DNA from: Thermincola ferriacetica
GTDB lineage: Bacteria; Bacillota; Thermincolia; Thermincolales; Thermincolaceae
NCBI RefSeq assembly: GCF_001263415.1
Contig: NZ_LGTE01000017.1
Coordinates: 1 to 64,000, forward strand
DNA: 64,000 nucleotides
Direction: 5' to 3'
This document shows, in pieces, positions 1 through 56,551 of the stretch. The notes beneath the pieces were generated by a model, which was not told the origin of the DNA, did no database searches, and saw only the letters and a program-made list of their open reading frames with translations. Positions within the stretch are counted from its first letter, which is position 1; each line of letters begins with the position of its first letter. The translations under genes were made by a program, and so were the position numbers.

Positions 1-2
1 GT

Positions 3-89
3 TCCCGCATGTTCGAAGATGGCGAAGGCCGCCGGGAAGTCCGGCACTCAACTTATCAGGGTGCCAAGGCTGTCGATAAGGGAGGTTAA
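3..89 (+). other. possible 3' end of a CDS entering from the left
   Basis: One plus-strand frame is open from the window edge to a TAA at 87-89 and encodes a 28-residue polar tail (…EDGEGRREVRHSTYQGAKAVDKGG). The stop codon lies inside the terminal inverted repeat of the element at 80-198, so the repeat would supply the end of the protein. I do not recognise the tail, and one other frame is also open here, so this is only a possibility. Confidence 0.22.
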
Positions 90-198
90 ATGTTTTCCGG
101 AGCGGGGCTTAAATCGTCCATCGGTCCGCGAGCCGCGTAAGCGGGAGCGGTTATCCGATGGAGATTTCGCCCGGAGCGGAGGAATCATTTAACCTCCC
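80..198. repeat. inverted-repeat element, copy 1 (119 bp, MITE/REP-like)
   Basis: The ends are a perfect 13-bp inverted repeat, GGGAGGTTAAATG (80-92) and its complement (186-198). Inside is a second perfect 8-bp stem, TCCATCGG (117-124) with CCGATGGA (155-162), and a small CCGC/GCGG hairpin. The same termini and subterminal sequence recur in opposite orientation at 56271-56489. There is no coding capacity. The nested stems suggest a non-autonomous mobile or REP-type structured repeat. Confidence 0.85.
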
Positions 199-491
199 CT
201 TTTCCAATCTGCGGCACGCAACATATGCTGAGTAACCGGACGGGAGGCGGCCTGACTTATTAGAAATGCAACATGAGCCATCGAGTTCGGGAACGCTGCC
301 TGCCTGGCCAGGTTTTGCAGCACAAAGCTCCTTGGTAGCGGAGAACCCCACCCACCCCTTCCGTGGTCGAAGGAAGGCGTAGCCCCGGAGCAACGGTTGT
401 TTCACCGGAACAGCGGCATCCGCAGAGCAACGTTGTTGCACCGTACAGCGACAAGATGCCTTCTGTGCCCCGCACAGCGAAGCTGTCAGCT
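199..491. other. non-coding stretch with short dispersed repeats
   Basis: No convincing gene is present: the frames open here lack ribosome binding sites and family resemblance. The stretch holds two tandem, imperfect copies of a dispersed motif, GGAGCAACGGTTGTTTCACC at 387-406 and a shorter variant at 425-442. I looked for 6S, SRP, RNase P and tmRNA signatures and found none. It lies directly downstream of the minus-strand Tad operon. Confidence 0.5.
387..442 (+). repeat. dispersed 20-bp repeat, two adjacent copies
   Basis: GGAGCAACGGTTGTTTCACC at 387-406 is followed by a degenerate copy at 425-442 in which GCAAC and GTTGC can pair as a hairpin. Near-identical copies occur at 29731-29750 (minus) and 41969-41988 (plus), always between genes. 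Confidence 0.65.
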
Positions 492-29696: not shown

Positions 29697-30020
29697 TCCG
29701 TTGACATTGGTCGGTTACCGCCACAGTAATGGTAAAACAATCGTTGCTCCAAAGCTGCGGGCGGAAACAGTGTAAACTCCGTTCAGTTGAAATCACTGAA
29801 CCCGGCCAAATCGTCGTCCATGACTCAATGGCCGGGTTTCCGGCGTCCGTGCCGGAAACAGTGATTTCAAGCCTTCACTGTCGTTAACACTGTTTGACCG
29901 CCCTCCGCTAAATCGCAATTCACTGTTTCACCATAACTGTGGCTGGATATCAACTGACCACTGTCTCCGGGCTGTGAACAAAATTTCTGGCCGGTTGTCA
30001 AAGACCACTGGCCGTTTACA
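29697..30020. repeat. palindromic repeat cluster between purH and purD
   Basis: The gap is built from nested inverted repeats. TTGAAATCACTG (29787-29798) pairs with CAGTGATTTCAA (29860-29871). Inside are AACCCGGCC/GGCCGGGTT and a CCGGC…GCCGG hairpin, giving a three-way junction. Outer arms are also related: CCACAGTAATGGTAAAACA near 29721 matches the reverse complement of the sequence near 29920-29945. The part 29770-29822 recurs inverted at 31471-31522, beyond purD, and 29731-29750 is a copy of the dispersed 20-bp motif. No coding sequence is evident. Confidence 0.7.
29731..29750 (-). repeat. dispersed 20-bp repeat copy
   Basis: The reverse complement reads GGAGCAACGATTGTTTTACC, one base different from the copy at 41969-41988. 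Confidence 0.65.
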
Positions 30021-55695: not shown

Positions 55696-55788
55696 TTTTC
55701 GTTCGAAACCAACAATAATAGGGAACAATTTTAACTGGAAATTTTGTAAATCCAGTTTAAAAAACATATTATGTGAGGAGGAATGAAT

Positions 55789-56208
55789 ATGGAATTTGCT
55801 ACTAAGAACGAAATTGGTGTTACAAAGGGAACCGCTGTTGAGGAGGCAGTGGACCAGAACTTTCGGGGAGAAACCATGGAAGTGGGCTTATACTTGGCCA
55901 TGGCCAGGCAGGCCCAAAGGGAAGGATACCCAGAAATTGCCGAGGTCTTTAAGGCCATTGCCATGGATGAAGCCTGGCATGCGGCCAGGTTTGCCGAATT
56001 AAACGGGCTCATTAGCAGTTCTACCAAGGAAAACGTGGAAAAAATGCTGAAAGGGGAAACCATGGCCAACAAAGGCAAAAAGGAGGCGGCTGTAAAGGCC
56101 AAAGAAAACAATATTGATGAGGCCCATGATGTTTTTGACGAGTCGGCCAAGGATGAAGCACGGCATGCCCTGGCCCTGGATGGGTTACTGAAAAGGTACT
56201 TTGGTTAG
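55789..56208 (+). CDS. rubrerythrin-like diiron protein without rubredoxin domain
   Basis: This 139-residue ferritin-like protein has [51 protein letters not shown] for the first diiron half and [21 protein letters not shown] for the second (ExxH/ExxRH). It lacks the C-terminal rubredoxin domain. Such proteins detoxify peroxide with NAD(P)H-derived electrons. The start is ATG 55789 because GAGGAGG ends seven bases before it; ATG 55783 is too close. It follows cydAB in an oxygen-defence group. Confidence 0.9.
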
Positions 56209-56216
56209 AGCGCTGA

Positions 56217-56236
56217 AGCTCCGGGTAACCGGAGCT
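56217..56236 (+). terminator. GC-rich hairpin without T-run after the rubrerythrin
   Basis: AGCTCCGGGTAACCGGAGCT is a perfect hairpin with no T-tract. A close relative with a T-run lies on the far side of the inserted element at 56526-56551, suggesting that the original terminator was disrupted or duplicated. Confidence 0.5.
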
Positions 56237-56270
56237 TACAGCTTGAAGACAAAGTAACATAGTAGGCCAA

Positions 56271-56489
56271 GGGGAGGTTAAATGATTTCGTCGCTCTGGG
56301 CGAAATCAAAAAATGGAGGGCATATTATTCTTCCGCTCACGGACGAAATCTCCTCCGGCAGCCGCTCCCACTGCGTGGGTCACGGGCCGGAGGACGATTT
56401 AAGTGCCTCTTCAGAATAATATGTCCTCCTGACACCAGAAGAACAATGGGAAGATTTTAGCCCCGCTCCGGAAAACATTTAACCTCCCC
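56271..56489. repeat. inverted-repeat element, copy 2, carrying a nested copy
   Basis: The ends are a perfect 14-bp inverted repeat, GGGGAGGTTAAATG (56271-56284) and its complement (56476-56489). The subterminal parts match copy 1 in reverse. In place of the central stem of copy 1 there is a complete second element (56315-56429). The 219 bp have no open reading frame of note. Confidence 0.85.
56315..56429. repeat. nested inverted-repeat element (third copy, divergent termini)
   Basis: GGAGGGCATATTATTCT (56315-56331) pairs 16 of 17 with 56413-56429. The core CGAAATC…CCGCTCCC…GGACGATTTAAG aligns to copy 1. The stem TCCTCCGG (56351-56358)/CCGGAGGA (56387-56394) replaces TCCATCGG/CCGATGGA with paired changes at both positions, so base pairing has been kept. 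Confidence 0.8.
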
Positions 56490-56525
56490 GAATTTTCCAA
56501 CATATCCTTTGTAAAAAAGTTTGGA

Positions 56526-56551
56526 AGCTCCGGTTATCTGGAGCTTTTTTT
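56526..56551 (+). terminator. intrinsic terminator
   Basis: AGCTCCGGTTATCTGGAGCT is followed by seven T residues. It may be the original terminator of the rubrerythrin unit, now separated from it by the element. Confidence 0.8.

Follow-up and report, generated by a model that had tools for sequence, protein, structure and literature searches.

Several kinds of short palindromic or structure-guided mobile DNA have been described in bacteria. Insertion sequences of the IS1272/IS1182 family take as their target a stem-loop of unrelated sequence, and the cruciform model proposed for them covers both replacement of the stem-loop and, if the element is joined at the 5' feet, its duplication (PMC5678879). 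Bacterial MITEs such as Chunjie and QMITE are short, gene-free and intergenic, carry terminal inverted repeats, occur in many copies, some of them truncated, and duplicate their target (PMC10969869). The pneumococcal BOX, RUP and SPRITE repeats are small families that insert into each other, SPRITE being terminator-like, according to the same source, which also covers the Rickettsia palindromic elements of about 100-150 bp (PMC10969869). REP/REPIN repeats, moved by RAYT proteins, are imperfect extragenic palindromes recognised by structure (PMC3116915, PMC8266576).

In this report, we describe a family of palindromic elements, unreported in the open-licence literature as far as this was searched, that resembles each of these systems and differs from each. 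It was followed from a 64,000-nucleotide stretch of a Thermincola ferriacetica contig (NZ_LGTE01000017.1, positions 1 to 64,000; hereafter the window). Like IS1272, it uses a stem-loop target irrespective of sequence, and its product is the duplication foreseen by the cruciform model; IS1272 itself, however, deletes its target without duplication, whereas the present element duplicates the stem-loop and is gene-free, and none of the five relatives tested has an IS1182-type transposase domain. The elements share with MITEs small size, lack of coding capacity, terminal inverted repeats, intergenic location, multiple and truncated copies and, as seen in Thermincola only, mobility with target-site duplication; in contrast to MITEs, the duplication of 16-37 bp is a hairpin, the palindromes are multi-level with fixed nesting positions, and no parent IS was found. 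Hairpin-length target duplication and recursive nesting are not described for BOX, RUP and SPRITE in the sections available. REP/REPIN repeats are palindromes of 20-40 bp with a GTAG/CGTC tag and no target duplication; compared on length and duplication rather than on the tag, the present element is much longer (a 119-bp palindrome in a 205-215-bp unit) and duplicates its target, and no RAYT was found. One copy gives an era-like gene its stop codon, a point set beside the Rickettsia elements; nearly all copies here are instead intergenic, beside terminators.

A palindromic element family across the class

The first-pass annotation of the window had proposed a family of structured inverted repeats with nested copies and compensating changes in the stems, and this is strongly supported by covariance models (A1 and R1, built from 14 seeds) applied to ten genomes. 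The search recovered 36 copies in the assembly to which the window belongs, well beyond the three in the window (BLAST gave 41 matches); the loci examined in this genome are the stretches around the matches. The element was present in all ten genomes sampled from the class, which comprises anaerobic bacteria including Thermincola, with 5-71 copies each (36 in the window's genome, then 59, 67, 20, 5, 55, 23, 13, 22 and 71). Element-bearing relatives include T. ferriacetica (G003, same hit in L109), Thermincola sp., HGW-Firmicutes-14 (G005), SKS1.bin35 and UBA2595. Among 58 genomes from elsewhere in the phylum there was no match, under filters stricter than those of the class run that still recovered 29, 49 and 54 copies in three positive genomes. 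Pattern matches in a genome collection (50 stretches from Actinobacteria and others) were mostly chance matches in G+C-rich sequence, the 16 tested scoring at most 22 bits. No Rfam family matches the element, and neither plasmids nor phages gave a match. Elsewhere in the window, Rfam identifies a purine riboswitch (RF00167, 22630-22730) and a TwoAYGGAY RNA (29752-29910, minus strand); a sub-threshold TwoAYGGAY match lies near an element copy (L024, 1092-1249, minus strand), and this RNA could itself be a repeat here.

In Thermincola, the full unit of about 205-215 bp consists of imperfect terminal repeats (TCAG..TTGACAAA and TTTGTCA..CTGA), an A+T-rich subterminal part and, in its middle, the G+C-rich imperfect palindrome. 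Unit length and terminal repeat are maintained across unrelated loci, and two families of the class have terminal repeats that are similar in sequence. Copy 1 (Table 1) forms an almost perfect palindrome of 119 bp that contains internal loops (GGGAGGTTAAATG..CATTTAACCTCCC). As the annotation had read them, copies 1 and 2 share arms in opposite orientation and copy 2 holds a complete second element; in copy 2, however, the outer element has not simply been interrupted, since its own core stem is missing and AAAAAAT, the inner element and TGACACC stand in its place. The same type of composite, with different outer flanks, lies at C3:149501-149717, and a half-decayed one at C23:6117-6292. Copy 1, copy 2 and the nested copy each fold far more stably than dinucleotide shuffles (0/200 as good; z -6.5 to -8.6), on either strand and as DNA or RNA.

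Table 1. Element copies and associated features in the window
Feature	Position	Strand	Evidence or remark
Element Z, palindrome of about 300 bp with copy 1 at its centre	1..354	.	left arm cut by contig start
Copy 1, element A	80..198	-	arms GGGAGGTTAAATG; core strand CCGCTCCCGC reads on -; R1 match 127.9 bits; folds
Upstream gene, rubrerythrin family; its terminator is the target	55783..56208	+	Pfam PF02915, E=3.9e-17
Left terminator stem-loop copy GAAGCTCCGGGTAACCGGAGCTT	56215..56237	+	no T-run after it
Left outer terminal repeat ACAGCTTGAAGACAAAG	56238..56254	+	sequence; cf. TCAG..TTGACAAA at the ends of copies in Thermincola
Copy 2, outer element A whose core is replaced by a second element	56271..56489	+	
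Nested inner-type element, arms GGAGGGCATATTATTC	56315..56429	+	R1 match 112.1 bits at 56314-56430
Right outer terminal repeat CCTTTGTAAAAAAGTTTG, imperfect	56506..56523	-	sequence
Right terminator stem-loop copy (GAAGCTCCGGTTATCTGGAGCTT) with T-run	56524..56551	+	direct repeat

Insertion beside terminators and duplication of the stem-loop

The elements are mobile, as empty sites in sister Thermincola genomes demonstrate. A site filled in G001 (L119) is empty in G002 (L193) and G003 (L186), each with one hairpin and no element, and two further filled and empty pairs agree (L124 versus L197; L120 versus L179); this evidence comes from Thermincola genomes only. Direct repeats of 16-37 bp flank 16 copies (15 of those examined in relatives or nested, and copy 2 of the window), at a spacing of 197-214 bp, or 284-286 bp for two copies with nested inserts. 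Repeats scoring at least 15 were found at 9/68 copies, against 0/68 control maxima. The repeats take the form of terminator-like stem-loops next to the upstream gene; nearly all fold as hairpins, and a T-run follows many of the right copies. The whole stem-loop of the intrinsic terminator is directly repeated on both sides of the element, whereas sister genomes hold a single one; because the duplicated target is a hairpin of varying length, insertion appears to be read from structure rather than from sequence. Where the element meets the duplicated hairpin, the position of its ends varies by as much as about 10 bp, which is unusual for a transposase.

Copy 2 has the layout of the Thermincola full units and lies 3' of the rubrerythrin-family gene. 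Its stem-loop (GAAGCTCCGG..CCGGAGCTT) occupies 56215-56237 and again 56524-56546, with a T-run after the second only, and this direct repeat scores 14 against at most 8 in that copy's control flanks. The two hairpin copies differ in a few places, so the insertion is old. At the end of an era-like gene (L118 in G001, L158 in G003, L138 in G002), the element gives the stop codon in two species; in a third, its position is downstream of the gene, and there the core is unchanged but the outer arms differ.

Base pairing, nesting and turnover of cores

In an alignment of 87 copies, 33 of the 37 stem pairs show changes on both sides, and two-sided changed cells number 579, compared with 48-99 in slid controls and 149 on average in shuffles. 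The two-position paired change in the core stem reported by the first-pass annotation (TCCATCGG/CCGATGGA versus TCCTCCGG/CCGGAGGA) is exact. Covariation this strong is what a structured RNA, acting as a 3'-UTR or small RNA with its fold under selection, would show. However, G-U pairs are normally frequent in RNA helices, and a fold selected on one RNA strand would be expected to show more G-U than A-C; at positions at least 85% Watson-Crick, only 29 of 2594 pair cells are G-T (about 1%) and 40 are A-C, and pairing is therefore kept at the DNA level and not as an RNA fold. Placement is not strand-specific either: elements occur in both orientations relative to genes, one orthologue is flipped in place, and orthologous sites are often empty or collapsed. 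Between co-directional genes, the CCGCTCCC strand is sense in 27/37 copies (p=0.008, with orthologous copies not removed and genes called as simple open frames), while convergent genes flank 14 copies and divergent genes 7. This bias and the position downstream of genes would suit an RNA, but insertion relative to a terminator predicts the bias just as well, and the bias is too loose for a cis-acting RNA. The RNA fold that the annotation had offered as one alternative is very unlikely.

The annotation took the compensating changes as a sign of selection on a fold. Pairing is indeed maintained; nevertheless, covariation alone does not prove such selection, because template switching during replication, a documented source of paired changes (PMC8794818), produces them as well. 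It also leads to an account that needs no dedicated enzyme: once a fork has stalled at a terminator hairpin, the nascent strand takes another palindrome as template and then returns, so that the element is copied in, the hairpin is copied twice, arms are kept complementary, centres are flipped and cores are collapsed or swapped. Consistent with this, one orthologous pair has the element inverted in place (L133/L142), another has its apical hairpin replaced (L137/L145), four copies have collapsed cores (L198, L180, L196, L191), orthologous arms carry multi-base paired changes (three two-sided changes in L118/L138), ends are imprecise and G-U intermediates are almost absent. On the other hand, template switching does not sit easily with a terminal repeat and unit length held at unrelated loci and shared between two families, and it would tend to perfect the internal loops and bulges, which stay imperfect throughout the class. 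We regard it as an unlikely explanation. The unpaired T65, C66 and T97 are conserved at 97-99% while the outer arms vary freely, and this near-invariance suggests that the imperfect hairpin is recognised, perhaps through its unpaired bases.

Nesting is general, with palindromes unrelated to the element standing at fixed positions within its loops. Four copies in G002 carry a G+C-rich palindrome of about 70 bp at one position where their G001 orthologues have CT (L189, L187, L185 and L199 versus L126, L128, L131 and L132), and a palindrome of about 52 bp stands at the apex in L195 (G002) and is missing from L129 (G001). The same apical insert in L208, judged against the non-orthologous L157, shows no target duplication. 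These inserts represent two further small palindrome families in G001/G002 (L189, L187, L185, L199, L208). At L156/L164 and L121/L183, the site is occupied by a different element subtype. Element Z, a multi-level palindrome of about 300 bp, has about 50 matches in the window's genome; it is enclosed by element A at C9:19886-20256 (L211) and occurs as half-copies at L212, L213, L215 and L217-L219, whereas A lies in the centre of Z at copy 1, where window positions 1-53 and 238-354 match the C9 Z at 89-91%. Both nesting orders thus occur, although a single composite may be the ancestor of the copies that share Z flanks. Nine near-identical copies in this genome share Z flanks (L001, L003-L005, L007, L009; L002 on one side) or outer ends (L006 and L008), and consequently do not represent nine independent jumps. 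Many contig ends fall in Z, which indicates breaks in the draft assembly at this element. By eye, a Z-like stretch is visible in G001 (L208) as well.

A proposed mobilising enzyme and the significance of the family

A transposase-recognised hairpin, the other alternative in the first-pass annotation, fits the empty sites and hairpin target better than an RNA does; the search for an IS200/TnpA-REP or DDE transposase with matching ends found none. The IS1182-type domain DDE_Tnp_1_6 (PF13751) occurs in the window's genome only as a single interrupted fragment and is absent from five relatives, and DDE_Tnp_1 is absent from this genome and G002. The Y1 proteins examined are of the ordinary IS200/IS605 TnpA type, are not adjacent to elements and have unlike ends, and G003 has none. 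In the window's genome and G001, no transposase was recognised between matching terminal repeats, and the solo terminal-repeat ends examined were collapsed elements or terminators with no recognisable transposase open reading frame. With the DDE candidates absent or broken and the Y1 proteins unlinked, the elements have no assigned enzyme, and an enzyme-free origin in replication comes into consideration. G003 has the fewest copies of the three Thermincola genomes (20) and several collapsed cores, which may be chance.

Movement by a RAYT (TnpA-REP) transposase, as for REP/REPIN repeats, would account for extragenic, imperfect hairpins with a conserved unpaired T in tens of copies, and for a 52-bp nested insert that leaves no target duplication. 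Nevertheless, the types and locations of the Y1 proteins, their absence from G003 and the target duplications of full units make it very unlikely.

We consider it probable that these are class-specific, non-autonomous, MITE-like elements that target hairpins and are moved in trans by a structure-guided enzyme. A G+C-rich palindrome could extrude as a hairpin or cruciform; a putative trans-acting enzyme would recognise the element ends and the hairpin and join the element to the feet of the extruded target stem-loop on each strand, and repair of the target would then leave a duplication of exactly stem-loop length. Similar chemistry, inserting into or replacing a loop or core hairpin, might give rise to nested copies. 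It is quite possible, if short of probable, that this amounts to a previously undescribed form of structure-guided transposition, in which gene-free palindromes enter terminators, the stem-loop is duplicated and the products are targeted again, with recursive growth (A-in-Z, Z-in-A).

Taken together, the family provides empty and filled sites at which the duplicated target matches a DNA hairpin whose length varies, naturally occurring copies by the dozen next to terminators, and palindromes nested in a natural series. Strong covariation kept at the DNA level is a warning for covariation-based RNA discovery, and our findings point to an enzyme yet to be found in Thermincola-like bacteria.
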